Positions 31,766 to 45,918 of a DNA stretch of 64,000 nucleotides are shown one piece after another. A model generated the notes under the pieces. It saw only the letters and a list, made by a program, of their open reading frames with translations, had not been told where the DNA came from and searched no databases. The number at the start of each line of letters is the position of its first letter. Within the stretch, counting starts at the first letter, position 1. The position numbers were made by a program, and so were the translations under genes. The stretch is from the NCBI RefSeq assembly GCF_947387515.1, contig NZ_CANDOB010000004.1, positions 62,001-126,000 of the forward strand, read 5' to 3'. This DNA is from Alkalihalobacillus sp. CinArs1. GTDB taxonomy: Bacteria > Bacillota > Bacilli > Bacillales > Guptibacillaceae.

Positions 31766-31794
31766 TTGATATTTATATAACAATAAAATATAAT
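31766..31794 (+). promoter_or_regulatory. SigA promoter of the paaABCD operon
   Basis: TTGATA - 17 nt - TATAAT; the predicted start is at about 31801, inside the operator palindrome. Confidence 0.82.
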
Positions 31795-31795
31795 G

Positions 31796-31810
31796 ACGTT
31801 AAATAAACGT
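31796..31810. promoter_or_regulatory. Shared operator, site 1 (paaA)
   Basis: ACGTT-AAATA-AACGT, a perfect inverted repeat centred 9 nt after the -10 box. The same CGTW-N5-WACG design recurs at 36488, 38070 and 42245. Confidence 0.75.
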
Positions 31811-31830
31811 TATATTGGAGGTGTGTGGGT

Positions 31831-32778
31831 ATGGAAGCTGTTTATCAGCAAAATATTGATCATTTCATGGATAGAATTAACAATGGCGAAAAAATCGAAG
31901 CGGACGATTGGATGCCAGATGAGTATCGTGAAGCATTGATCCGTTTGATATCAATGCATGGAATCAGTGAAATAATGGGGGCACTTCCCGAGAAGGAATG
32001 GGTTCCAAAAGCACCTACGCTTCATCGAAAATTAGCGATCATGGCAAAGGTTCAGGATGAGATGGGGCATGGGCAGCTTTTACTTCGTGTAGCTGAAGAT
32101 TTAATGGCACCGCTTGGAAAGAATAGAGATGACATCATGAAGGACCTGTTCTCAGGACGCTTAAAGTTTCACAACGTGTTTCATATGGAGGCACCAACGT
32201 GGGGCGATGCGGGAATAATTGCATGGCTAGTGGATGGTGCTGCGATCATCTCACAAACGATGATGCTAGGCACTTCTTATGGACCATATGGAAGAGCTCT
32301 GAAACGGATTTGTGCTGAGGAGGTCTTTCATGCGCAGCATGGCGAGAGCATCATCATGGCACTTGCAGAAGGCACAGAAGAGCAAAGGGAACTTTTGCAG
32401 GACGCGCTAAACAGATGGTGGACGTCGCTCCTAATGTTCTTCGGTCCTAAATCAAAAAATGAAACGGGTCACTCGAATCAAGATAAAAACATGCAGTACA
32501 AACTGCGTACGAAAACGAATGAAGAGCTACGCCAGGAATTTTTAACGAAATATGTTCCAAGAATCTGGGCGTTAGGATTAACGATTCCAGATCCTACATT
32601 AAAATTTGATGAAGAAAAATCAGAGTGGGAGTACGCAGATCCTGATTGGTCGGAATTTAAGAAAATCGTTACTGGAAATGGTCCGAAGTCTAAAGAACGA
32701 CTAGCGCTTAGAGTGCGCTCATATGAAATGAATAGCTGGGTGCGTGAGGCGCTTGGTAAAAGACCACAGCATATATAG
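31831..32778 (+). CDS. paaA: Phenylacetyl-CoA 1,2-epoxidase catalytic subunit PaaA
   Basis: A 315-residue protein (E. coli PaaA 309). ATG 31831 follows GGAGG by 10 nt. It is a di-iron carboxylate oxygenase: ligand motifs VQDEMGHGQLLLRVAEDL and ICAEEVFHAQHGESI (EExxH) are visible. With PaaB, C and E it inserts one oxygen atom into the aromatic ring of phenylacetyl-CoA, giving the 1,2-epoxide. First gene of paaA-B-C-D-ethD-paaG; PaaE is not present in the window. Confidence 0.95.
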   Translation: MEAVYQQNIDHFMDRINNGEKIEADDWMPDEYREALIRLISMHGISEIMGALPEKEWVPKAPTLHRKLAIMAKVQDEMGHGQLLLRVAEDLMAPLGKNRDDIMKDLFSGRLKFHNVFHMEAPTWGDAGIIAWLVDGAAIISQTMMLGTSYGPYGRALKRICAEEVFHAQHGESIIMALAEGTEEQRELLQDALNRWWTSLLMFFGPKSKNETGHSNQDKNMQYKLRTKTNEELRQEFLTKYVPRIWALGLTIPDPTLKFDEEKSEWEYADPDWSEFKKIVTGNGPKSKERLALRVRSYEMNSWVREALGKRPQHI

Positions 32779-32793
32779 AGAGGTGTTCTTGAA

Positions 32794-33135
32794 GTGAGTG
32801 AAGGTGAAAAGGATTTCTACCAAGTTTATGAAGTGTTTAGTAAGAAGAATGACAAAGCGCCGCTACAGTACCAATTCAGCCTGCTTGCTCCAAATCGTGA
32901 GCTTGCTTTTATCATGGCAAAGGAAAACTTCTTCCGACGAGAACAGCCTGCAGATATCTGGGTCGTAAAACGAGACGATATCCGAACGATGACACAAGAA
33001 GAACGAGAGGGAATGAAGAATCTCGATAAATCTTATAGAGAAACAAAAGGATATGGTTACTTGAAGAAAAAGTGGCGCAAATACGAACAGGAACAGCTTA
33101 CTGAAAAAGATATTATGGGAGGAGGCAATCATTGA
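32794..33135 (+). CDS. paaB: Phenylacetyl-CoA epoxidase subunit PaaB
   Basis: A 113-residue protein with a GTG start 8 nt after AGAGGTG. It matches the PaaB family: YEVFSKKNDKAPLQYQFSLL, LAPNRELAFIMAKENFFRRE and PADIWVVKRDDI. PaaB is a small non-catalytic subunit that bridges the PaaA-PaaC heterodimers. It is slightly longer than the E. coli protein (about 95) by a C-terminal basic tail. Stop overlaps the paaC start by one base. Confidence 0.93.
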   Translation: MSEGEKDFYQVYEVFSKKNDKAPLQYQFSLLAPNRELAFIMAKENFFRREQPADIWVVKRDDIRTMTQEEREGMKNLDKSYRETKGYGYLKKKWRKYEQEQLTEKDIMGGGNH

Positions 33136-33911
33136 TGGAGTCCGCCGAATACCGCAATAGTCTAATCGAGCTCATTTACCAGCTTGCAGATGATGATTTT
33201 ATCCTTGCCTATAGAGGATCAGAGTGGTTAGGACTCGCTCCCCATATTGAAGAGGATGTCGCCTTTTCTTCGATCAGTCAGGATTTAATGGGGCATGCAA
33301 CCCTCTACTATTCGTTACTCGAAGAGCTTGGTGAAGGGGACGCTGACAAACTCACACATGCGAGGTCACCTCATGACTTCCATAATGCAGTTTTATTAGA
33401 ACTTCCGAACGGGCAAGGAACATATCTCGAAGAACCTAACTACGATTGGGCTTTTACTGTAGTAAGAAACTATTTCTACACGTTAGCGAAAAAAGTACGC
33501 TTGCAATCCATCAAGGAAAACTCTTATGAATCCCTTCAACAAATCGTGAAAAAGATTTCTGTCGAGATGTCGTACCACCTCATGCACTGGGAAACGTGGT
33601 TCGATCAACTAATGAACAGTACGCCAGAAGCTAAAAGAAGAATGACAGACGCGATCAATATCGTACTCAAAGAAATGAGGGGCGTTTTCTCATATGGAGA
33701 AAATGGAGAAAAGATCGTACGTCTTTCCTTGATAGAACGTGAAGAGGTACTGATTCAGAGGTGGAAGGACATTCTTAACGAGAAGGTGGACTTTAGCCTA
33801 GATATTGAAATGAGCTTAGATGGAAGAAACGGCAAGCATACTGACCACCTTGAGGGCGCGTTATCAACACTGTCAGAAGTTTATCAATCGGTACCATCAG
33901 CAGAATGGTAG
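33135..33911 (+). CDS. paaC: Phenylacetyl-CoA epoxidase structural subunit PaaC
   Basis: A 258-residue protein (E. coli 248). ATG 33135 is 9 nt after GGAGG; a TTG at 33132 is possible. Ferritin-like helices are evident (LADDDFILAYRGSEWLGLAPHIEEDVAFSS in part, and MSYHLMHWETWF), but the complete set of iron ligands of PaaA is not kept, as expected for the inactive structural partner. Coupled to paaB. Confidence 0.94.
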   Translation: MESAEYRNSLIELIYQLADDDFILAYRGSEWLGLAPHIEEDVAFSSISQDLMGHATLYYSLLEELGEGDADKLTHARSPHDFHNAVLLELPNGQGTYLEEPNYDWAFTVVRNYFYTLAKKVRLQSIKENSYESLQQIVKKISVEMSYHLMHWETWFDQLMNSTPEAKRRMTDAINIVLKEMRGVFSYGENGEKIVRLSLIEREEVLIQRWKDILNEKVDFSLDIEMSLDGRNGKHTDHLEGALSTLSEVYQSVPSAEW

Positions 33912-33929
33912 TTTGAGAGGAGCTTTGTT

Positions 33930-34403
33930 ATGACAACGAGAATGAAAGTTCTACAGAAGCTTGATTCTGTAAAAGACCCTGAAATTCCTTCGGTTAGTGT
34001 TGTCGACCTCGGTATCATTTACGATGTGAAGGTGGATGAAGGAAACGTTGAAGTAGAGGCGATGCCTACATTCTCCGGGTGTCCTGCTCTTGATATCATC
34101 AAACGAGATATTAAAGAAGCAATTGAAGCAATAGAAGGAATTACATCCGTAGAAGTGAAGTATATACGTGAACCGATATGGACCACCGATCGTGTTACGG
34201 AAAGAGGGAAGGTACAACTGAAAGATTACGGAATCGCTCCTCCAGAAGAGAGAAGCGGGGACGAATGGCGTGTTCCTTGTCCTTACTGTGACTCTGTATA
34301 CACTACGATGGACAACATTTTTGGTCCAGCAGCATGTCGAAGTATTCTTTATTGTAAAAGCTGTAAAAATCCGTTTGAAGCCATGAAGCCTGTAGCAATT
34401 TAA
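33930..34403 (+). CDS. paaD: PaaD (MIP18/DUF59-type maturation factor)
   Basis: A 157-residue protein with an N-terminal DUF59/MIP18 domain (LDSVKDPEIPSVSVVDLGIIY; FSGCPALDIIKRDI, with conserved Cys) and a C-terminal zinc-ribbon-like part with C-x2-C pairs (CPYCDSVYT and CKSCKNPF). PaaD is thought to assist iron-sulfur or di-iron assembly for the epoxidase system, probably the PaaE cluster. That it is kept while paaE is missing here hints paaE exists elsewhere. ATG follows GAGAGGAG. Confidence 0.92.
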   Translation: MTTRMKVLQKLDSVKDPEIPSVSVVDLGIIYDVKVDEGNVEVEAMPTFSGCPALDIIKRDIKEAIEAIEGITSVEVKYIREPIWTTDRVTERGKVQLKDYGIAPPEERSGDEWRVPCPYCDSVYTTMDNIFGPAACRSILYCKSCKNPFEAMKPVAI

Positions 34404-34429
34404 TTTTAAAATAGAAAGGTTGATGAAAG

Positions 34430-34753
34430 ATGGTTAAAGTTATCGCATTGTATAAGCAGCCGGAGAACAAGCAGAAATTTGATGAGCATTATTTCAACAC
34501 GCACGCGCCGATCACGTCAAAGATCCCAGGGTTAAAGAAGATGGAAGTAACGAGAATCGTTGGTTCTCCTATGGGAGAAAGTGAATTTTATCTACTTTGC
34601 GAGATGTACTATGAAGATCATGAATCTATGAAGGCAGGTATGAAATCACAAGAAGGAAAAGCGTCAGGAAAAGACTTGATGAGCTTTGCTGGAGATCTTG
34701 TTACGCTGATGATCGGAGAAGAAGTACACGAAACAGCTGATACTAAGCAATAG
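34430..34753 (+). CDS. EthD family protein
   Basis: A 107-residue ferredoxin-like fold protein: VKVIALYKQPENKQKFDEHY, FNTHAPITSKIPGLKK and the C-terminal DLVTLMIGEE identify the EthD family (Pfam PF07110). Members help P450 or other degradative systems, or act as small isomerases/monooxygenase partners. Located between paaD (26 nt) and paaG (15 nt), it is probably made with the epoxidase operon; its role there is unknown. Confidence 0.85.
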   Translation: MVKVIALYKQPENKQKFDEHYFNTHAPITSKIPGLKKMEVTRIVGSPMGESEFYLLCEMYYEDHESMKAGMKSQEGKASGKDLMSFAGDLVTLMIGEEVHETADTKQ

Positions 34754-34768
34754 AAAAGGGGCACGAGA

Positions 34769-35542
34769 ATGTACGAAACGATTGAATACGAAACAAGGGA
34801 TCGGATTGCATGGATCCGCCTAAATCGACCAGATAAAATGAATGCGTTTACAATGGTGATGAATAAAGAAGTTCAAGAAGCGGTTGAGCGTGGCGAGGCC
34901 AATGAAGACGTACGCTGTATCGTGATTACCGGAAATGGAAGAGCATTTTGTGCAGGACAGGATTTGAATGGAGTTGACGAAGGACTCGATCATGGTGACG
35001 TACTTCGATCAGCATATAATCCTATGGTCAAGCAAGTCGTGAACTGTGAGAAACCAGTCGTTGCAGCTGTTAATGGTGTAGCTGCTGGTGCAGGGATGAG
35101 CCTTGCTCTCGCATGTGATTTCCGTCTTGCACATGAGAACGCTAGTTTTATTGAGGCATTCGTACACGTCGGGCTTGTTCCTGATTCTGGCAGCATGTAT
35201 TTTTTACCTCGATTGATCGGTCATGCAAAAGCGTTAGAGCTTGCGATGCTTGGTGATAAAGTGAGTGCATCGAATGCGAAGGAACTTGGTATGGTCAACG
35301 ATGTGTATGAGCATGATGCTTGGGAAGAAAAAGTCAGTAAGTTTGCTGCGCGTCTATCGAATCTACCACCTAAAGCGGTCTCACTCATCAAAGAAGGGAT
35401 GGCAAAAAGTTGGGACAGCAGTCTTGAGGAAGTGCTAGAATTTGAAGCAGAAGCGCAGCGTAAAGCAGGTCGAACCAACGATCATCATGAAGGTGTAAAA
35501 GCTTTTATTGAGAAGAGACGCCCGGTGTTTCAAGGTTCATAA
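34769..35542 (+). CDS. paaG: 1,2-epoxyphenylacetyl-CoA isomerase PaaG
   Basis: A 257-residue crotonase-fold enzyme (E. coli PaaG 262). Oxyanion-hole motifs GRAFCAGQDLNG and GVAAGAGMSLALACDFR and the catalytic-Asp segment HVGLVPDSGSMYFLPRL are visible; the Asp after VP replaces the Glu of hydratases, as in PaaG. It isomerises the ring epoxide to oxepin-CoA. Last clear member of the paaABCD-ethD-paaG operon. Confidence 0.9.
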   Translation: MYETIEYETRDRIAWIRLNRPDKMNAFTMVMNKEVQEAVERGEANEDVRCIVITGNGRAFCAGQDLNGVDEGLDHGDVLRSAYNPMVKQVVNCEKPVVAAVNGVAAGAGMSLALACDFRLAHENASFIEAFVHVGLVPDSGSMYFLPRLIGHAKALELAMLGDKVSASNAKELGMVNDVYEHDAWEEKVSKFAARLSNLPPKAVSLIKEGMAKSWDSSLEEVLEFEAEAQRKAGRTNDHHEGVKAFIEKRRPVFQGS

Positions 35543-35602
35543 TGCTTTAAAGAAGGAAACTGGGGGAAATATCGAGAATAATAGATGTTAGGGGGAAGGG
35601 GT

Positions 35603-35627
35603 CCTGGAGGTTAATTATCCTACCAGG
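35603..35627 (+). other. Imperfect hairpin between paaG and the second hydratase
   Basis: CCTGGAGG and CCTACCAGG can pair with one bulge around a short A/T loop. There is no T-run, so it may be an mRNA processing or stability element rather than a terminator. Confidence 0.35.
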
Positions 35628-35663
35628 CTCTTTCCTATGTTCTTAACTAGAGGAGGATGCAAA

Positions 35664-36440
35664 TTGGCTGTCGTTACATATGAAGTAAAGAATCACGTAG
35701 GATACGTTACATTGAATCGTCCGGATGTTCTAAACTGCTTTAACTATGAAACGCTTTCTGTACTTCAAGGAATCATCGATGATATTTATACCGATAAGAA
35801 TGTACGTGTTGTTATTTTTATGGGGGCTGGTGAAAAGGCTTTCAGTGCAGGAGCGGACTTAAAAGAAAGACGATCACTCTCTGAAAGTGAAGTGAAGCGG
35901 AACGTCAAAAAGATTCGCGAGGTATTTTCATCCGTTGAAGCTCTTCCTCAACCGACGATCGCAGCGCTCAACGGCTATGCATTCGGAGGCGGATTTGAAC
36001 TCGCACTAGCATGTGACTTTCGTTATGCAGTAGAAGGAACTAAGATGGGGCTTACTGAAACGAGTCTAGGTATTATACCTGGTGCCGGTGGAACACAGAG
36101 GCTTCCACGCCTTATCGGTTCTGCTAAAGCACTCGAACTGGTATTGACCGCAAGAAAACTAACTTCAGAAGAAGCGTTTGATTATGGCATCCTGAATGGT
36201 GTCGTAAAAGTTGAAGCCTTGGTATCTCAGTGTGAGGACCTTGCTTCTGAAATTTGTAAGAATGCGCCGGTGGCTGTTCAACAAGCGAAGTTTGCAGTCC
36301 GAGAAGGCATGAATGTCGATCGACATACGGGCATGGCTATCGAATCGAAAGCGTATGAAGTGACAATTCCCACGAAGGATCGTTTAGAAGCTCTTGAAGC
36401 TTTTGCTGAGAAGCGAAAGCCTGAGTTTAAAGGAGAGTAG
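35664..36440 (+). CDS. Enoyl-CoA hydratase/isomerase family (PaaF-like)
   Basis: A 258-residue crotonase. The TTG at 35664 lies 7 nt after AGGAGG and is preferred to the longer frame. Motifs EKAFSAGADLKERR, GYAFGGGFELALACDFR and TSLGIIPGAGGTQRLPRLIG, with the catalytic Glu pair of true hydratases, distinguish it from PaaG. It could hydrate 2,3-dehydroadipyl-CoA (PaaF role) or another enoyl-CoA such as methylglutaconyl-CoA. It is 121 nt after paaG with no clear promoter. Confidence 0.85.
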   Translation: MAVVTYEVKNHVGYVTLNRPDVLNCFNYETLSVLQGIIDDIYTDKNVRVVIFMGAGEKAFSAGADLKERRSLSESEVKRNVKKIREVFSSVEALPQPTIAALNGYAFGGGFELALACDFRYAVEGTKMGLTETSLGIIPGAGGTQRLPRLIGSAKALELVLTARKLTSEEAFDYGILNGVVKVEALVSQCEDLASEICKNAPVAVQQAKFAVREGMNVDRHTGMAIESKAYEVTIPTKDRLEALEAFAEKRKPEFKGE

Positions 36441-36469
36441 TTGCGATGTCCTTCGCTCTTTGGTAGTAT
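36441..36469 (+). promoter_or_regulatory. Candidate promoter of paaX
   Basis: TTGCGA - 17 nt - TAGTAT with an extended TG at 36461-36462; overlaps the end of the hydratase gene region. Confidence 0.55.
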
Positions 36470-36487
36470 AACATCATATTTAGGGTG

Positions 36488-36500
36488 CGTTTTATTAACG
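36488..36500. promoter_or_regulatory. Shared operator, site 2 (paaX)
   Basis: CGTT-TTATT-AACG, perfect arms and the same spacing as the paaA site, 27 nt before the paaX ATG. Suggests autoregulation. Confidence 0.65.
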
Positions 36501-36526
36501 GTATACCTTGAGCGGAGGAAAATGTT

Positions 36527-37417
36527 ATGAATGAAGGTTTAAATACAAGGTCGATGATCTTTACGCTGTATGGGGATTATATCCGCCACTACGGTAATGA
36601 GATTTGGATCGGAAGTTTGATCAGGCTGTTGAAGGAGTTTGGACACAATGATCAGTCAGTTCGAGCTGCAATCTCAAGAATGAACAAACAAGGATGGGTA
36701 CAATCAAGAAAAGAAGGTAACAAAAGCTATTACTTCTTAACAGAGCGTGGGGTAAAACGGATCGATGAAGCGGCAAGGCGTATCTTTAAGCTTCAGCCGT
36801 TCAGTTGGGATGGAAGATGGCGCATGCTTCTTTACACGATTCCAGAAGAAAAAAGACACATTCGTGACGAGCTACGAAAAGAACTTGTCTGGAGCGGCTT
36901 TGGAAGTTCTTCTGCGAGTTTGTGGATGTCTCCTAATCATCTGGAAGAGCAAGTGGATGTATTGATCGAGAAATACGATATTAAAGAACATATTCATTTC
37001 TTTGTAGCTGATTACAAAGGTCCACACGAAAATACTGCTCTTGTGAATGAATGCTGGGATTTGAAGGACATCAGCGATAAATATCGCTCCTTTATCAAAC
37101 GTTACAGTGAGAAGTTCGTCATCGATCGTAATAAGATCGAAAAAGGGAACATGACAGACGGAGAATGTTTTGTTGAAAGGGCAAAACTTGTTCATGAATA
37201 TCGTAAGTTTCTATTCGTGGATCCGGGTCTTCCTCCTCAGCTGCTGCCAGATGAGTGGCCGGGAGAACATGCGGCGAAGCTATTCAGCGACTACTACCGT
37301 ACGCTTGCAAAACCTTCATCACGCTTTTTTGAGGAGGTCTTTAAAGAAGGCAATGAATTGAAGAAGAAAGACGATCGTTATGATGCGCTTCAGCATCCAC
37401 TATTGATCGATAGATAA
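36527..37417 (+). CDS. paaX: PaaX family transcriptional repressor
   Basis: A 296-residue regulator (E. coli PaaX 316). The N-terminal winged helix (TRSMIFTLYGDYIRHYGNEI; NDQSVRAAISRMNKQGWVQSR) and the middle segment WDGRWRMLLYTIPEEKR are characteristic of PaaX. In E. coli PaaX represses paa genes and is released by phenylacetyl-CoA. Here it likely binds the CGTW-N5-WACG palindromes, one of which lies in its own leader. GCGGAGG precedes the ATG. Confidence 0.93.
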   Translation: MNEGLNTRSMIFTLYGDYIRHYGNEIWIGSLIRLLKEFGHNDQSVRAAISRMNKQGWVQSRKEGNKSYYFLTERGVKRIDEAARRIFKLQPFSWDGRWRMLLYTIPEEKRHIRDELRKELVWSGFGSSSASLWMSPNHLEEQVDVLIEKYDIKEHIHFFVADYKGPHENTALVNECWDLKDISDKYRSFIKRYSEKFVIDRNKIEKGNMTDGECFVERAKLVHEYRKFLFVDPGLPPQLLPDEWPGEHAAKLFSDYYRTLAKPSSRFFEEVFKEGNELKKKDDRYDALQHPLLIDR

Positions 37418-37446
37418 AAAAAGGAACGGGCTCCCGTTCCTTTTTT
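37416..37446. terminator. Bidirectional terminator paaX / paaY-like
   Basis: AAGGAACGGG / CCCGTTCCTT stem with long A and T runs at both sides. Confidence 0.94.
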
Positions 37447-37450
37447 GGTA

Positions 37451-37981
37451 TCAGCGAATTTCTTCAACGCCTTCGATTTGTTCAAGAAATTCTTTTCCTT
37501 TTTTCTTGTAGGTATCAATCGTTAACTTAATCAATTCTCGATCTTTGTCAGTAAGTTCTCTAACGACTTTGCCTGGTGAGCCGAGAACCATCGTGTTTGG
37601 TGGAATCTTCTTTCCTGCAGGTATAAGTGTATTCGCTCCAATTAATGCACCTTCACCAATTTCAGCTCCGTCAAGTACGATAGCACCCATTCCAATGAGA
37701 GCACCTTTCTTTACCTTGCATCCATGAAGAATCGCGTTATGTCCAACCGAAACTTCATCTTCTAGCACAAGAGGATACCCTTCAAACAAATGGCACGTAC
37801 AATTATCTTGAATGTTACATCCGTTTCCGATTGTAATCGGTGCTTCGTCTCCTCTTAATACAGTATTGAACCACACGCTTGATTCTTCTCCAATCGTAAC
37901 ATCCCCGATAATTTTAGCTCCTGGAGCTACGAAAACATCTTTGCCTACCGATGGTTTATGACCGTTATAAGAAATTAGCAT
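37451..37981 (-). CDS. Gamma carbonic anhydrase family protein (PaaY/YtoA-like)
   Basis: A 176-residue left-handed beta-helix protein with hexapeptide repeats (IIGDVTIGEESSVWFNTVLRG in part, ALIGMGAIVLDGAEIGEGALIG). The three zinc-type His ligands are visible in CTCHLFEG, SVGHNAILHGC. In E. coli PaaY is a thioesterase that clears dead-end CoA esters of phenylacetate degradation; the same fold includes YtoA-type proteins. Its place beside paaX and a shared operator at 38070 favours the PaaY role. Confidence 0.85.
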   Translation of the reverse strand: MLISYNGHKPSVGKDVFVAPGAKIIGDVTIGEESSVWFNTVLRGDEAPITIGNGCNIQDNCTCHLFEGYPLVLEDEVSVGHNAILHGCKVKKGALIGMGAIVLDGAEIGEGALIGANTLIPAGKKIPPNTMVLGSPGKVVRELTDKDRELIKLTIDTYKKKGKEFLEQIEGVEEIR

Positions 37982-38069
37982 CGAAAAAATCCTCTCTTTC
38001 TCATTTTTTTGCAGGAATTCAGTGTCTGTTTTTTGAATGTTTAGTATGAGTATAACACGTAATCTATTA

Positions 38070-38086
38070 AACGTAATAAATACGTT
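38070..38086. promoter_or_regulatory. Shared operator, site 3 (divergent paaY-like / flavoprotein)
   Basis: AACGTA-ATAAA-TACGTT, perfect 6-nt arms; CGT-to-CGT spacing of 11 as in the other sites. It can serve both divergent genes. A TATACT -10 candidate for the minus strand is at 38049-38054. Confidence 0.7.
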
Positions 38087-38109
38087 ACAGGAAAAGGGGC
38101 GAAGACATC

Positions 38110-39084
38110 ATGAATCGGATTTGTGAAACGCTATCGATCAACTATCCCATCATACAAGGGGGGATGGGAAATATCTCAAGCTCAGAACTAGCATCTGCAG
38201 TCTCGAAGGCTGGAGGTCTTGGCACGATCGGAACTGGAACGATGTCGCCAGATGAGGTCGAGAAATTATTAGTAGATATTAAAATGCTTACATCACTACC
38301 ATTCGCTGTGAACATCCCGATCACCGTAACTCCATACTTTAAAGAAATGTGTGAGCTGGTAGTGAAGCATGACGTCAAAGTAGTGTCTCTCTCAGCAGGG
38401 AATCCCTCGCCACATATTTCTTTTTTTAAAGAGCATGGCATAAAAGTGATCTGCGTGACAGCGAGTGTGAAGCATGCGATGAAAGCTGAAAATGCCGGAG
38501 CAGACATCATTGTTGGAGAAGGTTTTGAAGCAGCAGGGATCAACTCATCTCTAGAGCTAACGACCTTGACGTTGATTCCTCAGTTAAAAGCTAGTGTATC
38601 CATTCCAGTCATCGCTGCTGGTGGAGTAGGAGATGGCAAAGGATTAGCGGCAGCCTTTGTGCTCGGAGCTGAAGGGGTTCAGATGGGGACAAGACTCGTC
38701 GCAACGAAAGATTCTCCGTATCATTCAAATTATTTAGATCAAATTTTGCAGTCGAAAGACACTGGTACTGTGATCGTTGGACGAAGTGTAGGCAAAGTAA
38801 GAAGGATATTAAAAACAAGTTATTCATCAATGATAGAAGAAGCAGAAAGAAATGGAGTACATCCTAACGATTTTGCCAAGATGACGGCTGAAGATAAGCA
38901 CATTATTGGAGCGGTTGAAGGACGGCTGGAAGAAGGGTTCATCAATGGTGGACAAGTTAGTGGACTGATCAATTCGTTACCTACTGTGGAAGAGCTTTTT
39001 GTAACGATGATACGAGAAGCTTCAGAAACACTAAACGATCAATCCCTACAGTTCAACAAGTTTAAACAACCTAATAACGGATAA
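38110..39084 (+). CDS. Nitronate monooxygenase / FabK-type flavoprotein
   Basis: A 324-residue TIM-barrel FMN protein: PIIQGGMGNISSSELASAVS, IPVIAAGGVGDGKGLAAAF and GAEGVQMGTRLVAT mark the nitronate monooxygenase/FabK/IMP-dehydrogenase-like family. The FabK catalytic EAGGH segment is replaced by EAAGINS, so the active-site His is missing and enoyl-ACP reductase activity is unlikely. Promoter control shared with the paaY-like gene suggests a part in aromatic degradation, for example a redox step on a ring-derived intermediate; the reaction is unknown. AAAAGGGGC is the ribosome site. Confidence 0.82.
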   Translation: MNRICETLSINYPIIQGGMGNISSSELASAVSKAGGLGTIGTGTMSPDEVEKLLVDIKMLTSLPFAVNIPITVTPYFKEMCELVVKHDVKVVSLSAGNPSPHISFFKEHGIKVICVTASVKHAMKAENAGADIIVGEGFEAAGINSSLELTTLTLIPQLKASVSIPVIAAGGVGDGKGLAAAFVLGAEGVQMGTRLVATKDSPYHSNYLDQILQSKDTGTVIVGRSVGKVRRILKTSYSSMIEEAERNGVHPNDFAKMTAEDKHIIGAVEGRLEEGFINGGQVSGLINSLPTVEELFVTMIREASETLNDQSLQFNKFKQPNNG

Positions 39085-39167
39085 GGGGGAAGCCCTTGTC
39101 TAAGACAAATATTTTAAAAATATACAATAGTAATAATTGTTTGATAATTCGTTGACAAGTTTCACAA

Positions 39168-39197
39168 TTGCAGTGTACCATTACGATAAAATATGAC
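39168..39197 (+). promoter_or_regulatory. Candidate promoter of the ABC importer operon
   Basis: TTGCAG - 18 nt - TATGAC; a TTGACA at 39152 has no well-spaced -10. No T-box or operator palindrome is visible in this 157-nt leader. Confidence 0.4.
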
Positions 39198-39241
39198 AGA
39201 TAGCTACATGTAGGTTCTCATTAAATGAACAGGGGGAGAAA

Positions 39242-40264
39242 ATGATGTTGAAATCATGGAAAAAATGGGTTGGGATTTCTCTTGTCAGTAGTGTCTTGGT
39301 GCTTGCAGGGTGTGGAAGCAACAATGCATCGTCAGACTCTGACAGCGGGGGAGAAGGGTCAGAAGATAAGATGTATACGATCGGAGTAACGCAGATCGTT
39401 GAACATCCGTCGTTGGATGCGGCATTCGAAGGCTTTAAGATGGCGCTAGAAGAGAACGGCTTTAAAGAAGGAGAGAACGTTACATACGATGTGCAAAATG
39501 CGCAGAATGATATGAACAACAGCAATACCATCGCTCAAAACTTAGTTGGAGATAATGTCGATCTGATCTTTGCAAACTCTACACCAAGTGCTCAATCAGC
39601 ATTGAACGCAACGTCAGATATACCGATCATCTTCACTTCGGTTACAGATCCTGTTGGAGCGAAGCTAGTAGAATCGTTTGATAAGCCAGGAGAGAATATA
39701 ACAGGTACAACTGATACTCATCCTGATGCGATTCCAAAGACGATTGAATTTATCTCGAGTGAATTCGACGCTGAGAACGTTGGGTTAATTTATAACGCTG
39801 GGGAGCAAAACTCTGTTGCACAAGTCAAAGTTGTAAAAGAAGCGCTAGAAAGTAACGGATTGAAGCCTGTTGAGAAAAGCGTTTCGACTTCAGCTGAAGT
39901 AAAGCAAGCTGCTGAAGCCCTAGTAGGAAAAGTCGATGTGATCTATATTGCTACTGACAATACGGTCGTATCTGCCCTTGAATCTGTTATCAGCGTTGCG
40001 AACGACAAAGACATTCCAATGTTTGCAGGGGAATTCGATTCTGTTGAACGAGGCGCGTTTGCTGCCTACGGATTCGACTATAAAGATATTGGGTACGAAG
40101 CAGGTTTGATGGCAGCAAAGATCTTAAATGGTGAAGCAACTGCATCTGAATTACCTGTTCAATATCCTCAAAATCTGAAGCTTAAGATGAATAAGAGTGC
40201 TGCTGAAGAAATGCGAATCGATATTAAACAAGAATGGGAGGAAGAAGGAGAATATATCGAGTAA
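39242..40264 (+). CDS. ABC importer substrate-binding lipoprotein (TrpX-like)
   Basis: A 340-residue lipoprotein with lipobox VLAGC (about residue 23-24) and a mature domain of the ABC_sub_bind family (Pfam PF04392): IGVTQIVEHPSLDAAFEGF, NDMNNSNTIAQNLV, LIFANSTPSAQSALNAT, PIIFTSVTDPVGAKLV. TrpXYZ-type systems are predicted aromatic amino acid (tryptophan) importers. Next to a phenylalanine dehydrogenase, a phenylalanine or other aromatic substrate is a fair guess. Two ATG codons are adjacent; a terminator separates it from the permease. Confidence 0.88.
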   Translation: MMLKSWKKWVGISLVSSVLVLAGCGSNNASSDSDSGGEGSEDKMYTIGVTQIVEHPSLDAAFEGFKMALEENGFKEGENVTYDVQNAQNDMNNSNTIAQNLVGDNVDLIFANSTPSAQSALNATSDIPIIFTSVTDPVGAKLVESFDKPGENITGTTDTHPDAIPKTIEFISSEFDAENVGLIYNAGEQNSVAQVKVVKEALESNGLKPVEKSVSTSAEVKQAAEALVGKVDVIYIATDNTVVSALESVISVANDKDIPMFAGEFDSVERGAFAAYGFDYKDIGYEAGLMAAKILNGEATASELPVQYPQNLKLKMNKSAAEEMRIDIKQEWEEEGEYIE

Positions 40265-40271
40265 CAGGACA

Positions 40272-40314
40272 GGTTCGAGAAAGAAGTCAGCTTCTTTTTC
40301 GAACCATTTTTTTT
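40272..40314 (+). terminator. Strong terminator inside the ABC operon
   Basis: GGTTCGA..AAAGAAG / CTTCTTT..TCGAACC 14-15-bp stem, 4-nt loop, then eight T. It lies between binding protein and permease genes, probably lowering permease and ATPase expression relative to the binding protein. Confidence 0.9.
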
Positions 40315-40349
40315 ACTCGTGAGAATGAAATTAAGGGGGAGGCTTACAT

Positions 40350-41375
40350 ATGGGCTCAGCATTATTTGGTGCGGTTGAATCTGGTGTGATTTATGCTATC
40401 ATGGCGCTCGGTGTATATCTATCATTTCGAATATTAGACTTTCCAGATTTAACGGTAGACGGAAGCTTTGTAACTGGGGCTGCAATTGCCGCTATTCTGA
40501 TCGTTAATGGAACAAATCCTTTCTTTGCAACTTTGATTGCAATCGGTGCAGGATTTTTAGCAGGATGTGTGACAGGATTACTACATACAAAAGGAAAAAT
40601 AAATCCACTGCTTTCAGGGATTTTAATGATGATCGCACTTTACTCGATCAATCTCAGAATCATGGGCCGTTCGAATGTGCCCCTGTTGAACGAAGAGTCG
40701 ATCTTTACAAAAGTAGAATTCATTTTCTCATCACTAGGAATTGAGTCGTTAGTAAACAGCATAGCATCGGCCGTTGGGCTAGGAGGTATCACCTCTACAT
40801 GGTCGATTTTAATCAGTATGCTGTTGCTTACAGCTGTTATTAAAATCTTGACCGACTATTTCCTTAAGACGCAGGTCGGTCTTGCATTACGTGCGACAGG
40901 CGATAACAAACGAATGATTAGGAGTTTTTCAGCCAACACTGATCAACTGACAATCCTAGGTCTTGGTATTTCAAATGCTCTTGTCGCACTGTCTGGAGCG
41001 CTCATTGCGCAGTATAGTTCATTTGCAGATGTAGGAATGGGAATCGGGATGATTATTATCGGTCTTGCCTCCGTCATAATTGGAGAAGCGATATTCGGAA
41101 CGAAAACGATCGCGATCACAACGTTTGCCGTTATTGGGGGAGCCATCGTTTACCGATTGGTTGTAAGTCTGGCACTTCGAGTTGATTTTCTTGAAACAGG
41201 TGATATGAAATTGATCACAGCAGTCATTGTTATCGGAGCATTGATCTTCCCGCAGTTAATCGATGGGCAAAAGGAGCGAAATCGAAAGAAACGGAAACGT
41301 CTACAGCAAACGAAACTGAAAGAGAATGGAGGAAATGAGTATGCTTCTTCTAAATCAGATTCACAAAGTGTTTAA
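40350..41375 (+). CDS. ABC importer permease (TrpY-like)
   Basis: A 341-residue membrane protein with about eight hydrophobic segments and the family motifs SGVIYAIMALGVYLSFRILDFPDLTVDGSF (in parts) and TGDNKRMIRSFSANT, as in branched-chain/sugar-type BPD_transp_2 permeases that accompany ABC_sub_bind proteins. The C-terminus is strongly basic. GGGGGAGG lies 8 nt before ATG. The end overlaps the ATPase gene by 35 nt. Confidence 0.9.
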   Translation: MGSALFGAVESGVIYAIMALGVYLSFRILDFPDLTVDGSFVTGAAIAAILIVNGTNPFFATLIAIGAGFLAGCVTGLLHTKGKINPLLSGILMMIALYSINLRIMGRSNVPLLNEESIFTKVEFIFSSLGIESLVNSIASAVGLGGITSTWSILISMLLLTAVIKILTDYFLKTQVGLALRATGDNKRMIRSFSANTDQLTILGLGISNALVALSGALIAQYSSFADVGMGIGMIIIGLASVIIGEAIFGTKTIAITTFAVIGGAIVYRLVVSLALRVDFLETGDMKLITAVIVIGALIFPQLIDGQKERNRKKRKRLQQTKLKENGGNEYASSKSDSQSV

Positions 41376-42135
41376 CGAAGGAACACTAGACGAGAAGGTT
41401 GCGCTAGAAGATATCGATCTAAAATTACAACCTGGTGATTTTGTAACTGTGATCGGAAGTAACGGTGCAGGAAAATCGACGTTGATGAATATGATCTCTG
41501 GCGTGTTAACTCCAGACGTAGGTGATGTTTTTATCGATGACAAGAAAGTAACGACGATGCCAGAGTATAAGCGGTCGAGGTTAATTGGGCGAGTCTTTCA
41601 AGATCCGATGGCAGGGACAGCCCCTTCGATGACGATTCAAGAGAACTTAGCGATGGCCTACTGTCGGAACCGTAGGCGTACCCTTGTAAAAGGCGTTACG
41701 AAAAAACTAAGAACCACTTTCCAGGAAGCTCTCGAAAGCCTTCACCTTGGACTTGAAGATCGACTGAACGCGAAAGTAGGATTATTATCCGGTGGAGAAA
41801 GACAAGCACTCTCTCTACTGATGGCCACGTTTACTGATCCGAAAATTCTCTTGCTTGATGAACATACGGCAGCACTCGACCCAGCTCGAGCAGAGCTCAT
41901 AACTAAGCTTACAGGAGAAATCGTTGAGAAGACGGGCCTAACCACAGTGATGGTTACGCATAATATGCAACAAGCGCTAGATCTCGGAAATCGCTTGATC
42001 ATGATGGACAGCGGAAAGATTATTCTAGAAGTCGATGGTGAGGACAAGCAGAATCTTACGATCGAAGCCCTGCTACATGAATTTCAAAGAATCAAAGGTT
42101 CAAAGTTGAATAGTGACAAGGCACTGCTTGGATAA
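41341..42135 (+). CDS. ABC importer ATP-binding protein (TrpZ-like)
   Basis: A 264-residue ATPase. ATG 41341 is chosen because GGAGG ends 8 nt before it; ATGs at 41326 and 41335 overlap or crowd that site. It has Walker A GSNGAGKST, signature LSGGERQALSL, Walker B ILLLDEHTAALDP and the H-loop VTHNMQ. The Asp-Glu-His 'DEHTAALD' form is typical of this subfamily. It overlaps the permease gene. Confidence 0.9.
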   Translation: MLLLNQIHKVFNEGTLDEKVALEDIDLKLQPGDFVTVIGSNGAGKSTLMNMISGVLTPDVGDVFIDDKKVTTMPEYKRSRLIGRVFQDPMAGTAPSMTIQENLAMAYCRNRRRTLVKGVTKKLRTTFQEALESLHLGLEDRLNAKVGLLSGGERQALSLLMATFTDPKILLLDEHTAALDPARAELITKLTGEIVEKTGLTTVMVTHNMQQALDLGNRLIMMDSGKIILEVDGEDKQNLTIEALLHEFQRIKGSKLNSDKALLG

Positions 42136-42152
42136 ACCTTGTGAACGTTACG

Positions 42153-42180
42153 GCTGTCGAAGTAGGTTCGGCAGCTTTTC
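42153..42180 (+). terminator. Terminator after the ABC importer
   Basis: GCTGTCGAA / TTCGGCAGC stem (one G-T pair) with a 5-nt loop and TTTTC. Confidence 0.8.
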
Positions 42181-42214
42181 TAACGCGAAAGGGTCGTAAT
42201 TTTTTGACAATTAA

Positions 42215-42243
42215 TTGACGGTTATTATACGTGATGTTATTAT
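42215..42243 (+). promoter_or_regulatory. SigA promoter of the thioesterase-PheDH-dehydrogenase operon
   Basis: TTGACG - 17 nt - TATTAT. The distance to the operator centre (9 nt) equals that in the paaA promoter. Confidence 0.7.
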
Positions 42244-42244
42244 A

Positions 42245-42259
42245 TCGTTAAATAAACGT
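42245..42259. promoter_or_regulatory. Shared operator, site 4 (PheDH/2-oxoacid dehydrogenase operon)
   Basis: TCGTT-AAATA-AACGT, nearly identical in sequence to the paaA site including the AAATA centre. A weaker copy (ACGGT-TATTA-TACGT) may lie 27 nt upstream at 42218-42232. Confidence 0.75.
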
Positions 42260-42295
42260 CATATATTTTAGTGTGATGATTAGGGGATGAAGCGA

Positions 42296-42691
42296 GTGAA
42301 GGATGGTATCGCCATCGGACAAAAAGCAACAGTTACAACAACAGTGACATCAGAAATGTTCGCTCAGTTTGAAGGGAACGTTGTCCATCCAGCTTATTCT
42401 ACCGTTTCAATGGTCTACCATATGGAATGGGCATCGAGAAAGCTCATTCTTCCATACTTAGAAGAGGAAGAAGAGGGAATTGGCGGAGGGGTCGAAATGA
42501 AGCATCTTGGGCCAGCATGTGAAGGTCAAGAGATCACGATCACCGCAACGATCACCTCATTGACGAGTAAATCAGTTATTAGCTATGTGGAAGTGAGAAG
42601 AGGATTGGATATTATTGGAACGGGATCAGTCGTTCAGTTCATCCTACCTAAGAAAGCAATAGAAGAGAAATTAGCAAATGCTAAATTGTAA
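42296..42691 (+). CDS. Hotdog-fold thioesterase (FlK-like)
   Basis: A 131-residue protein. GTG 42296 stands 9 nt after AGGGG; the ATG at 42287 abuts that site. It resembles the fluoroacetyl-CoA-thioesterase-like hotdog family (ATVTTTVTSEMFAQFEG, HPAYSTVSMVYHMEWASR, VEMKHLGPACEGQEITITA). As first gene of the PheDH/2-oxoacid dehydrogenase operon it may hydrolyse unwanted aryl-CoA or acyl-CoA esters, comparable to PaaI in other bacteria. Substrate not known. Confidence 0.8.
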   Translation: MKDGIAIGQKATVTTTVTSEMFAQFEGNVVHPAYSTVSMVYHMEWASRKLILPYLEEEEEGIGGGVEMKHLGPACEGQEITITATITSLTSKSVISYVEVRRGLDIIGTGSVVQFILPKKAIEEKLANAKL

Positions 42692-42716
42692 GCGATTTCA
42701 TTAAGGGGTGAAAATC

Positions 42717-43817
42717 ATGTTTGATCGAATAGCTGAGCATGAACAAGTACTTTTTTGTAATGACGCAGATACAGGACTTAAGGCCATCATCGCGATACAT
42801 AATACAACGCTTGGTCCTGCTCTTGGTGGCTGTCGGATGAGACCGTATGAAACCGTAGACGATGCTTTAGAAGATGTCCTAAGACTCTCTAAAGGAATGA
42901 CATATAAATGTGCTGCAGCAGATGTGGATTTCGGAGGAGGTAAAGCTGTAATTATCGGAGATCCTCTTACAGATCGCACTCCTGAATTATTCCGTGCATT
43001 CGGTCAGTTTGTGGAATCGCTTAACGGGCGATTTTATACAGGAACAGATATGGGGACGACACCAGATAACTTTGTACATTCTCTACGTGAGACGAACTGT
43101 ATCGTCGGCGTTCCAGAAGAATATGGTGGAAGCGGAGACTCTTCTATTCCTACTGCAAAAGGTGTTTTATACGGCATACAAGCTACGAACAAAATGGTAT
43201 TTGGAAATGAAGAGTTCGGAGGTAAGACGTATGCGATTCAAGGTCTTGGAAAAGTAGGGTATAAAGTTGCTGAAATGTTGCTTGAAGAGGGCGCCGAAAT
43301 TATCGTTACTGATATTAACCGCTCCGCTATCGATCGACTCATTCAGCGTGCGATCGAACTGAAGGGTGAGGTCAAGGTCGTCTCAGGTGATGAGATCTAC
43401 GAAGCTGACGCAGATGTGTTCGTACCATGTGCGCTAGGTGGGATCATCAATGATCGTACGATCGATATGTTAAAAGTCAGTGCTGTTGTCGGATCAGCTA
43501 ACAATCAACTTCTCACTCTTGAGCACGGAGACCGCCTTCATAATAGAGGGATTCTATATGCACCGGACTATATTGTGAACAGCGGAGGGTTGATACAAGT
43601 ATCTGATGAGCTATATTCTCCTCACCCGATGCGTGTACTTCAAAAGACGAAAGCAATTTACGATACGCTTCATACGGTGTTCAAAAACGCAGAAGAAAAT
43701 TCAATATCGACTGTCCAGGCTGCGAATTATTTTTGTGAAGAAAGAATTGAAAGCCGTAAAAGAAGAAATAGCTTCTTTTCTCACAAAAAGCCTGGCAAAT
43801 GGGCTGTGCGTTCTTAA
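42717..43817 (+). CDS. pdh: Phenylalanine dehydrogenase
   Basis: A 366-residue Glu/Leu/Phe/Val dehydrogenase. ATG 42717 is 8 nt after AAGGGGTG. The sequence follows the known Bacillus/Lysinibacillus phenylalanine dehydrogenases closely as I recall them: [36 protein letters not shown] (in parts) with catalytic Lys64 and Lys76, YTGTDMGT with Asp111, NAD motif [12 protein letters not shown] and SANNQLL. Leucine dehydrogenases instead have GGTRM and GLNLGGAK. It converts L-phenylalanine to phenylpyruvate with NAD. Situated 25 nt after the thioesterase and 23 nt before E1alpha. Confidence 0.88.
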
Positions 43818-43840
43818 ATGCAGATAATAGGAGGATACGT

Positions 43841-44911
43841 ATGGATATGAATGAGAAATTCCCTATCGTACAGCTAATCACTGGTGACGGCAGGAGAACC
43901 GGAGCTATTTCTGAAAACATTACGATCGAAAAAGCAAAACGTTTTTATCAGCATATGGTGTTTTCTCGTTTGTTCGACCGAAAAGCAGTAAATCTTCAAA
44001 GACAGGGGCGTATTGGGACATACGCTCCTTTTGAAGGGCAGGAAGCTTCTCAGATCGGAAGTGCACTTGCTATGGAAGATGGCGACTGGATGTTTCCGAC
44101 TTATCGCGATCATGCAGCTACTGCTGCATTTGGTCATTCTTTAAAAAATATATTCCTCTATTGGAAAGGGTGTATCGAAGGCTGTGTGCCTCCGAAAGGA
44201 AAGCATATCTTTCCACCTTCCGTTCCGATTGCATCTCAGATTCTTCACGCTACAGGTACCGCATGGGCGGAGCAAAAGAAAGGGACCGACAGAGTGTCGA
44301 TCGTCTATTTTGGCGACGGTGCAACTTCTGAGGGAGATTTTCATGAGGGGCTAAACTTTTCCAGTGTGTTTAATATTCCTGTCGTATTTTTCAACCAAAA
44401 TAATGGCTATGCGATCAGTGTTCCTCTTGAACGTCAGATGAAAACAAAAACGATTGCCCAGAAGGCTTTAGCATATGATATCCCTGGCGTTCGCGTCGAT
44501 GGAAACGATGTGTTTGCTGTTTACGATGAAACGATCAAAGCGGTCGAGCGAGCAAGAAGCGGCGGTGGACCGACGTTGATCGAAGCAGTCACCTGGAGGT
44601 ACGGCGCTCATACAACGACGGATGAGCCTTCGAAATATCGTGACCAGTCTGAAAGTAAAAGAAGAAGAGAGAATGAAGACCCAATTACAAGAGTAGAGAG
44701 GTTTCTTGAACATGAAGGGGCATGGGATTCAAATTGGGCAGAAAATGTTCATGAAGAGGCAGAACAAAAGCTTGATGAAGCGGTGATCGAAATGGAAAAA
44801 ACGATTAAATCTGATGAATCACTCATGTTTGACCATGTGTTTGGGACGGATGTTTGGCCAGTTCAGGAGCAAAAGCATCGTTTCTTTTATGAAGGGAGCG
44901 AGAAGGGATGA
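43841..44911 (+). CDS. 2-oxoacid dehydrogenase E1 alpha subunit
   Basis: A 356-residue thiamine-diphosphate enzyme subunit. ATG 43841 follows TAGGAGGAT. It carries LQRQGRIGTYAPFEGQEASQ, the ThDP motif YFGDGATSEGDFHEG..NQNN, and the phosphorylation-loop type region WRYGAHTTTDEPSKYR. The N-terminal part is pyruvate-dehydrogenase-like, while YGAHTTTDEP is between PDH and branched-chain types, so the substrate is open. Context with PheDH suggests phenylpyruvate. It overlaps E1beta by 4 nt. Confidence 0.9.
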   Translation: MDMNEKFPIVQLITGDGRRTGAISENITIEKAKRFYQHMVFSRLFDRKAVNLQRQGRIGTYAPFEGQEASQIGSALAMEDGDWMFPTYRDHAATAAFGHSLKNIFLYWKGCIEGCVPPKGKHIFPPSVPIASQILHATGTAWAEQKKGTDRVSIVYFGDGATSEGDFHEGLNFSSVFNIPVVFFNQNNGYAISVPLERQMKTKTIAQKALAYDIPGVRVDGNDVFAVYDETIKAVERARSGGGPTLIEAVTWRYGAHTTTDEPSKYRDQSESKRRRENEDPITRVERFLEHEGAWDSNWAENVHEEAEQKLDEAVIEMEKTIKSDESLMFDHVFGTDVWPVQEQKHRFFYEGSEKG

Positions 44912-45903
44912 GTACTGCCGTAAATACAAAGAAATTGACTATCGTCCAAGCGATTACGGATGCGTTAAGAGAAATGCTAGCTGAAGATGAATCCGTATTG
45001 GTGCTCGGAGAAGACGTAGGTAAGAACGGAGGGGTATTCAGAGCGACAGATGGTCTTTTTGAGCAGTTCGGTGATGATCGCGTAATCGATACGCCTCTAG
45101 CAGAATCAGGATTGATCGGGTCATCGATCGGTCTTGCGATGAACGGCTTTAAACCCGTTGTAGAAATACAGTTCCTTGGGTTTATCTATCCTGGTTTTAA
45201 TCAATTGATCACCCATGCCACGCGCATTCGAACTAGGACGCAAAGCCGCTATACCGTTCCGTTAACTGTACGAGCTCCATATGGATCAGGCGTAAGAGCA
45301 CCAGAAATTCATAGTGACAGTACTGAAGCTCTTTTCACTCATATTCCGGGCTTAAAAGTGGTTGTACCTTCAAACCCTTATGATGCAAAAGGTCTTCTGA
45401 TCAGTTCTATTAAAGATCCAGACCCAGTTCTATTCCTTGAACCTATGAAAATATATCGTGCAGGGAAAGAAGATGTACCAACTGAAAGCTATTCTGTTCC
45501 ACTTGGTAAAGCTTCAGTCAAACGAACAGGTGATGATGTCTCGATCTTCGCCTGGGGTGCTATGGTGAGAGTTGCAGAAAAAGCAGCTGAAGAAGCAAGT
45601 AAGAATGGAATGCACTGTGATGTCATCGACCTAAGAACGTTATATCCGTTAGATAAAGATGCAATCGCTGAATCTGTACAGAAAACGGGAAGAGCCATTA
45701 TCGTCCATGAAGCTCCTTCAACTGGTGGCGTTAGCAATGACGTGATCGAGATCATCAACGATACTTCCTTCCTTTTCATGAGAGCCCCAATTAAAAAAGT
45801 GACAGGCTACGATACGCCTGTACCTCTATTTACACTTGAAGACGACTATGCGCCTGATGAAAAGAAAATCTATCGAGCAATTGAAGAAGTGACGCGTTTC
45901 TAA
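44908..45903 (+). CDS. 2-oxoacid dehydrogenase E1 beta subunit
   Basis: A 331-residue transketolase-like subunit with VLGEDVGKNGGVFRATDGL, DTPLAESGLIGSSIGLAMNG, EIQFLGFIYPGFNQL and APYGSGVRAPEIHSDS, standard for PDH/BCKDH E1beta. It completes the alpha2beta2 E1 that decarboxylates a 2-oxo acid and passes the acyl group to lipoyl-E2. Coupled to E1alpha by ATGA overlap, 15 nt before E2. Confidence 0.93.
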   Translation: MSTAVNTKKLTIVQAITDALREMLAEDESVLVLGEDVGKNGGVFRATDGLFEQFGDDRVIDTPLAESGLIGSSIGLAMNGFKPVVEIQFLGFIYPGFNQLITHATRIRTRTQSRYTVPLTVRAPYGSGVRAPEIHSDSTEALFTHIPGLKVVVPSNPYDAKGLLISSIKDPDPVLFLEPMKIYRAGKEDVPTESYSVPLGKASVKRTGDDVSIFAWGAMVRVAEKAAEEASKNGMHCDVIDLRTLYPLDKDAIAESVQKTGRAIIVHEAPSTGGVSNDVIEIINDTSFLFMRAPIKKVTGYDTPVPLFTLEDDYAPDEKKIYRAIEEVTRF

Positions 45904-45918
45904 GGAGGGTGAACGTTA

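Follow-up and report, generated by a model that had tools for sequence, protein, structure and literature searches.

PaaX-family repressors of phenylacetate (paa) catabolism are described for E. coli and Pseudomonas, where the regulon comprises paaZ, paaABCDEFGHIJK and paaXY, the operator lies at the promoter, PaaX represses its own promoter and phenylacetyl-CoA is the effector, releasing PaaX of Proteobacteria (review PMC9493321, in its accessible part). The E. coli operator is given there as TGATTC(N27)GAATCA. In Thermus thermophilus and Burkholderia cenocepacia the paa genes are repressed by PaaR, a TetR-family protein that likewise responds to phenylacetyl-CoA (PMC6651687 and PMC9493321, accessible parts). 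Among Bacilli genomes with the pathway, about half encode both PaaY and PaaX (PMC13186573, 2026, accessible part); its main text lacks the terms 'binding site' and 'palindrom', and the motifs noted are protein motifs of the ligase, not operators. The sources read describe PaaX operators only for E. coli and Pseudomonas, and a literature search whose reach excluded most subscription papers and preprints found none in Bacillota. Here we describe a candidate for such an operator in a 64-kb stretch of Alkalihalobacillus sp. CinArs1 (the window: bases 62001-126000 of contig 4, or 1.6% of the 4.03-Mb genome). The window carries a paa cluster with paaX, and its promoters hold a short palindrome that we take, with a probability of roughly 0.87, to be the PaaX operator in Bacilli, placed near the start site.

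The arrangement predicted here resembles the regulon of E. coli and Pseudomonas in having a PaaX-family paa repressor, repression of its own promoter, an operator at the promoter and phenylacetyl-CoA as effector. It differs in the operator, a compact 15-bp palindrome (consensus ACGTTAANTTAACGT) with CGTT/AACG half-sites 11 bp apart and an A/T core between them, and in the gene set, which adds an amino-acid transporter, an amino-acid dehydrogenase and a 2-oxoacid dehydrogenase. An earlier note on this DNA, made from the sequence alone, remarked that the E. coli site looks different, in agreement with the site quoted in the accessible part of the review (PMC9493321). The window shows no enrichment of the E. 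coli-type site: allowing at most 2 mismatches, it has 10 matches against 6.3 expected, a count reached by 9 of 100 shuffles. Our claim is therefore of a PaaX regulon with a different operator.

The palindrome and its conservation

The pattern CGTWNNNNNWACG (CGTW-N5-WACG) has 8 matches in the window against 2.2 expected, a number reached by none of 100 shuffles. Four are the palindromes that the earlier note had located upstream of paaA, paaX, a divergent gene pair and a thioesterase operon (operators 1, 2, 3 and 4a in Table 1), and each lies where it was placed to within 1-2 nt. The 11-nt C-to-C spacing holds for all sites, operators 1 and 4a do share the core CGTTAAATAAACG, and their centres, 31803 and 42252, lie exactly 9 nt past the -10 boxes TATAAT (31789-31794) and TATTAT (42238-42243). 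The other four matches (15765, 45081, 45260 and 52343) each fall within an open reading frame (ORF), so for this pattern the window has no further intergenic copy, as had been said. A weaker tandem copy had been suspected at 42218. It ranks third in the window under a matrix built outside the window's family and is for that reason counted as a full fifth site (operator 4b).

Conservation was assessed in loci found by a search with a PaaX alignment, in which the best 80 of 412 relatives were retained as named loci with flanks of up to 10 kb; those of the window's own family (L107-L115) were left out of the outside-family tests. By PaaX, the closest named relative is the record Alkalihalobacillus algicola AmN0-13 (95% identity), which stands amid Pseudalkalibacillus-named records. 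Across the 80 loci the gene order paa - paaX - (PaaY-like) - NMO - trpXYZ - FlK - dehydrogenase - E1 - E2 is largely preserved, with paaA in 72, NMO in 72, the dehydrogenase in 67, FlK in 63, E1 alpha in 63, trpX in 60 and the PaaY-like gene in 44. When a matrix made from the four window sites was applied outside L107-L115, with the 99% level of dinucleotide shuffles as threshold, sites were found upstream of FlK in 50/59 loci, paaA in 37/62, NMO in 35/65, trpX in 29/53, the PaaY-like gene in 24/40 (the same divergent region as NMO) and paaX in 20/71. The dehydrogenase gene, probably a phenylalanine dehydrogenase (PheDH) gene, lies inside an operon and can serve as an internal control: it passed in 0/59 loci at this level and in 3/59 at the 95% level. 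Motif discovery from random starts in 150 upstream regions, again without L107-L115, returned ACGTTAA.TTAACGT, and the five best places of the resulting matrix in the window are exactly the five sites. In 39 non-redundant loci, four of them from the window's family, a matrix refined on the same loci placed paaA (30/36), FlK (27/32), trpX (20/28) and NMO (19/35) above the 99% level of mononucleotide shuffles, and the PheDH control again gave nothing (0/32).

Taken together, phylogenetic footprinting strongly supports reading these promoters as a regulon. The promoters listed in the earlier note stand; its list was incomplete, in that the trpXYZ-like transporter joins in relatives and a degenerate site at 39184-39196 was missed. 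Relatives carry a full site at trpX, which would place the transporter under PaaX there. The window has one arm only, a copy (CGATAAAATATGA) that gives no match under the 15-nt matrix, and in this genome PaaX would perhaps control trpX only weakly.

The palindrome also reaches beyond this group. In other orders of the class Bacilli, 20 stretches were examined, with PaaX 44-69% identical, and 15 of them have a paaA at least 69% identical. In 11 of these 15 the operator lies upstream of paaA (score of at least 12), with PaaX 47-68% identical and often with a different gene order, which argues that the operator tracks paaA plus PaaX rather than one inherited arrangement.

How specific the motif is depends on its centre. 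As first written, CGTW-N5-WACG occurs at 314 places in the genome (reversed control, 210), and because it is so common it says little alone and was rejected as standalone evidence. The form with an A/T-only core, CGTWWWWWWWACG, is specific: it occurs at 18 places (reversed control, 4), of which the 4 in the window are all in promoter DNA. Elsewhere there are 14, with 12 inside ORFs and the 2 intergenic ones unconvincing, so the window holds every convincing site found in the genome. One of the intergenic places, C2:238375, lies beside a hairpin without a nearby gene start. A site at the promoter of a ferredoxin-NADP reductase gene (C1:907062; presumably yumC-like, a name given without a family search) was rejected as a target, since it is present only in this genome and in G002; in the other 12 members of the genus the right arm reads ATG instead of ACG, and the 15th genome of the family lacks the site. 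A scan allowing up to 2 mismatches yielded no new target either. It found 21 places, 2 of them window sites and 17 in ORFs of at least 80 amino acids (some short ones may be spurious), and of the two intergenic places one lies between converging genes and the other has a broken arm and precedes a membrane-protein gene by about 180 nt. The genome-wide check proposed in the earlier note, run as pattern scans, thus gave no further convincing target outside the window.

A pattern with 314 genomic occurrences might be explained by chance, as a loose palindrome matching A/T-rich intergenic DNA. Such an explanation has next to no probability left: it leaves unexplained the excess in the window, the fact that a matrix from other families finds all five sites again, and the empty control gene, and conservation across genera already refutes it.

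PaaX as the candidate regulator

The product of the window's paaX gene scores 347.7 bits against NCBIfam TIGR02277 (cut-off 264.55), which places it in the PaaX family. Its domains follow the expected layout, each above its gathering score (PF07848 at the N terminus, the Cas2-like PF20803 in the middle and PF08223 at the C terminus), and the E. coli PaaX structure 8a39 aligns with it across residues 8-270. We infer binding by PaaX from co-occurrence and gene neighbourhood. PaaX is present in 80/80 loci, as the search required, and other regulators were seen in at most 7 loci each, a judgement made by eye on ORFs of at least 80 amino acids in the 45 largest clusters, without family scans. In a sample of the order comprising 397 genomes, 180 have PaaX and 168 have paaA, and all 168 also have PaaX. 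The 17-nt pattern CGTTRAATWAACGTNAT occurs in 88 of these genomes, 87/180 with PaaX against 1/217 without, and its reversed control hits few genomes. Its matches cluster around the pathway: 110/125 are no more than 40 kb from paaX or paaA, 10 lie farther away or on other contigs, and 5 have no listed anchor. The sites in G364, the sole genome with the pattern and without PaaX, were rejected: one is in an ORF and one beside a short helix-turn-helix-like ORF, and no paa gene was seen nearby. At the level of the protein, a DNA-reading winged-helix core [QP][SA][VI]R.A.SR[MI] (for example QAVRAAISRM) is kept in the 11 distant loci that have the operator; E. coli PaaX deviates from it (RFVRTALFRL).

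A real operator could also be bound by a different regulator whose gene lies elsewhere and always accompanies paa, for instance a TetR-type protein like Thermus PaaR. The CGTT/AACG half-sites do recall the Thermus PaaR sites, CNAACGNNCGTTNG and, by selection, AACnAACGTTnGTT, which contain AACG/CGTT as here (PMC6651687, accessible part), and PaaR alongside PaaX is reported for several Bacilli (PMC13186573, accessible part). Moreover, paaA and PaaX co-occur completely in the 397 genomes, so PaaX is not singled out by genomes that lack it. However, PaaR belongs to another protein family, the Thermus patterns differ in arm order or spacing (CNAACGNNCGTTNG has inverted arm order and a 2-nt spacing), and neither CNAACGNNCGTTNG nor AACNAACGTTNGTT exceeds expectation in the window (13 matches against 18.4 expected when up to 2 mismatches are allowed, and 2 against 3.5). 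No regulator but PaaX was seen to be conserved in the 80 loci, a view that regulators encoded elsewhere would escape; likewise no TetR gene was seen by eye among their conserved ORF clusters, and places outside these were not searched for one. Besides PaaX, three regulator-like ORFs of the window were scanned, of which one, at 15808 and 16 kb from paaA, is a TetR. The site at paaX's own promoter also speaks for PaaX: of the 15 genomes in the window's family, 11 have two intact arms there and 4 differ by one arm base. We regard a different regulator as improbable. PaaX, the natural candidate of the earlier note, is also the best one here, being conserved in the loci and in the paaA genomes and having a site at its own promoter in the window.

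Several observations weigh against the PaaX reading. Every one of the 87 genomes with PaaX and CGTTRAATWAACGTNAT also has paaA, a Fisher test on the counts of 87/180 and 1/217 ignores relatedness, and a control genome, with paaA and without PaaX, is not found among the 397. A shared operator lies at the paa operon and at linked promoters, and at paaX only in part: the paaX promoter has a site in just 11/39 non-redundant loci. The NMO site is frequently degenerate (CATTATTTTAACG), and only 4 FlK promoters outside L107-L115 have a second copy at a distance of 27 nt. In at least 8 loci named Rossellomorea or Bacillus, the paaA promoter has another inverted repeat, TATCACAC...GTGTGATA, in place of the usual site, and in 4/15 distant loci (L252, L253, L263 and L269) paaA has no site. 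A similar winged-helix core also occurs in some loci without a site at paaA, such as L252 and L253. Finally, paaK, which lies elsewhere in the genome, has no operator site on matrix scoring and was rejected as a target.

The alternative repeat TATCACAC...GTGTGATA was noted in L139, L144, L150, L151, L161, L166, L168 and L185. It is long, often with an ACGT-like centre, and was not found in the window; the loci that have it at paaA keep the usual site at paaX, trpX and FlK.

Promoter architecture and a possible mechanism

At the paaA and FlK promoters of the window the operator begins 2 nt after the -10 box, and the consensus of the relatives shows the same geometry; the operator should therefore cover or overlap the predicted start site. 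In 25/30 paaA and 22/25 FlK promoters with an operator, another half-site, AC[GA], is found upstream at a distance of exactly 16 nt from the operator start; the runner-up distances reach only 6 and 8 promoters, respectively. It does not characterize trpX (1/16) or NMO (3/19) promoters, nor most paaX promoters (4/12). In FlK promoters this conserved half-site corresponds to the right arm of operator 4b. In the window, half-sites occupy four places in the FlK promoter: -27, -16, 0 and +11.

A fixed position 2 nt after the -10 box, as in the paaA and FlK promoters, could also be produced by a core-promoter or 5' leader feature, such as a start-site region or an RNA element, in place of a binding site. 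This is very unlikely. The sequence has the symmetry of a palindrome, keeps a strict 11-nt spacing and occurs at promoters with several different functions. Its distance to the -10 box varies at NMO and paaX, and the -16 half-site lies in the -35/-10 spacer, that is, upstream of any transcript from that promoter.

If the palindrome is the PaaX operator, a simple switch can be proposed. In the absence of pathway substrate, a PaaX dimer on the operator would block RNA polymerase. The operator should overlap the start site at paaA and at the thioesterase operon, and at paaX it lies farther downstream. The -16 half-site in the spacer of the first two promoters may hold a second PaaX unit. Phenylacetyl-CoA, the effector known from Proteobacteria, would release PaaX and so allow aromatic amino acid uptake, deamination, oxidative decarboxylation to phenylacetyl-CoA, aerobic Paa breakdown and expression of paaX itself. 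The gene set is consistent with a pathway that turns aromatic amino acids into phenylacetyl-CoA. More tentatively, and at somewhat less than even odds, PaaX of Bacilli may read an undescribed operator whose half-sites are phased, at -16, 0 and +11, with a further one at -27 in a single promoter of this genus. More than one dimer or a higher-order form of PaaX would then clamp the promoter and control a complete phenylalanine-to-central-metabolism unit across the class, running from uptake via the dehydrogenase and the 2-oxoacid dehydrogenase to Paa.

A class-wide operator in Bacilli would make the regulon readable from genomes, and could be used as a probe in gel shifts and in phenylacetyl-CoA-responsive reporters. 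Phenylacetate catabolism would share one switch with the uptake and breakdown of aromatic amino acids. If PaaX binds, its orthologues have changed their DNA target yet kept the pathway.

Genes of the cluster and further observations

The features of the cluster are collected in Table 1. Some of the assignments are best read as family likeness. The PaaY-like protein falls under both cut-offs (223.7 bits for NF050158, cut-off 250; 144.3 for PaaY, cut-off 319.6), and the trpXYZ-like transporter scores 264.5 bits against the tryptophan-transporter family NF041285, under its cut-off of 390. For the amino-acid dehydrogenase of the thioesterase operon the nearest solved structures are leucine dehydrogenases. 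Its sequence reads TGTDMGT where the leucine dehydrogenases compared read TAEDVGT or TAEDVNT, and since the Gly in this motif is a mark of Bacillus phenylalanine dehydrogenases, the enzyme is likely a PheDH. E1 alpha is of the pyruvate/2-oxoacid dehydrogenase type; we infer that phenylpyruvate may be its substrate.

Table 1. Predicted operators, promoters and genes of the paa cluster (window coordinates; scores from the outside-family matrix)
Feature	Position	Strand	Remarks
Acyl-CoA ligase gene	30145		Before paaA in gene order
paaA promoter (predicted)	31766..31794	+	TTGATA -35, 17-nt spacer, TATAAT -10; geometry conserved; ends 2 nt before operator 1
Extra half-site ACAAT	31780..31784		In -35/-10 spacer of paaA, exactly 16 nt upstream of operator 1
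Operator 1, ACGTTAAATAAACGT	31796..31810		Upstream of paaA; top window score, 20.8; position kept in relatives
paaABCD, EthD-domain gene, two enoyl-CoA hydratase/isomerase genes	31831..36440	+	Run downstream of operator 1
Operator 2, GCGTTTTATTAACGG	36487..36501		Upstream of paaX; score 13.0; 17 nt beyond likely -10 TAGTAT (36464-36469)
paaX	36527..37417	+	Predicted repressor for these operators; TIGR02277, three Pfam PaaX domains
Gamma-carbonic-anhydrase-like / PaaY-like hexapeptide protein gene	37451..37981	-	NF050158, PaaY model
Operator 3, ACGTAATAAATACGT	38071..38085		Between divergent PaaY-like and NMO flavoprotein genes; score 14.3
NMO/FabK-like flavoprotein gene	38110..39084	+	Pfam NMO, 204.7 bits
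Degenerate site, CGATAAAATATGA	39184..39196		Upstream of trpX-like gene; left arm retained, right arm decayed
trpXYZ-like ABC transporter (substrate-binding protein, permease, ATPase)	39242..42135	+	NF041285, Pfam
Thioesterase-operon promoter (predicted)	42215..42243	+	TTGACG, 17-nt spacer, TATTAT; conserved
Operator 4b, ACGGTTATTATACGT	42218..42232		27 nt upstream of 4a; score 14.8, third best; overlaps -35 end and part of spacer
Operator 4a, TCGTTAAATAAACGT	42245..42259		Upstream of FlK-like thioesterase operon; score 19.0
FlK-like thioesterase, Leu/Phe-type amino-acid dehydrogenase, 2-oxoacid dehydrogenase E1 alpha, E1 beta, E2 and E3 genes	42287..48503	+	Run downstream of operators 4a/4b

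The EthD-domain gene (34430-34753) sits between paaD and a paaG-like gene, and its family is present in 70/80 loci. No paaE-like reductase gene was noticed in the window's paa run, though no search was aimed at one. Genes resembling those for thiolase, 3-hydroxyacyl-CoA dehydrogenase and aldehyde dehydrogenase, named by eye, are in the cluster at many other loci and are not among the window's paa genes. The sixth-best match of the matrix, ACGTTTTATCATCGA (63422-63436, score 12.1), lies inside an ORF at the window end and is probably due to chance.

Catabolite-control boxes resembling cre sites (consensus TGNNARCGNWWWCA) occur three times in the window (42687-42700, 34839-34852 and 30605-30618) against 0.6 expected, and one of these overlaps the end of the thioesterase gene and sits right ahead of the dehydrogenase start. 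In the 200 nt that precede each gene in the 39 non-redundant loci, such boxes are found at PheDH in 14/32 and at trpX in 7/28 (0.05 expected each), and at FlK in 1/32, NMO in 1/35, paaA in 0/36 and paaX in 0/39. The pattern suggests that CcpA control may be layered over that by PaaX. The sole strong match to phenylacetate-CoA ligase (paaK) in the genome (G000:C2:683806-685080, L241) lies far from the cluster with 642.9 bits, just below the cut-off of 646.3, and by eye its promoter contains a near-match to the cre-like consensus, differing at one base.

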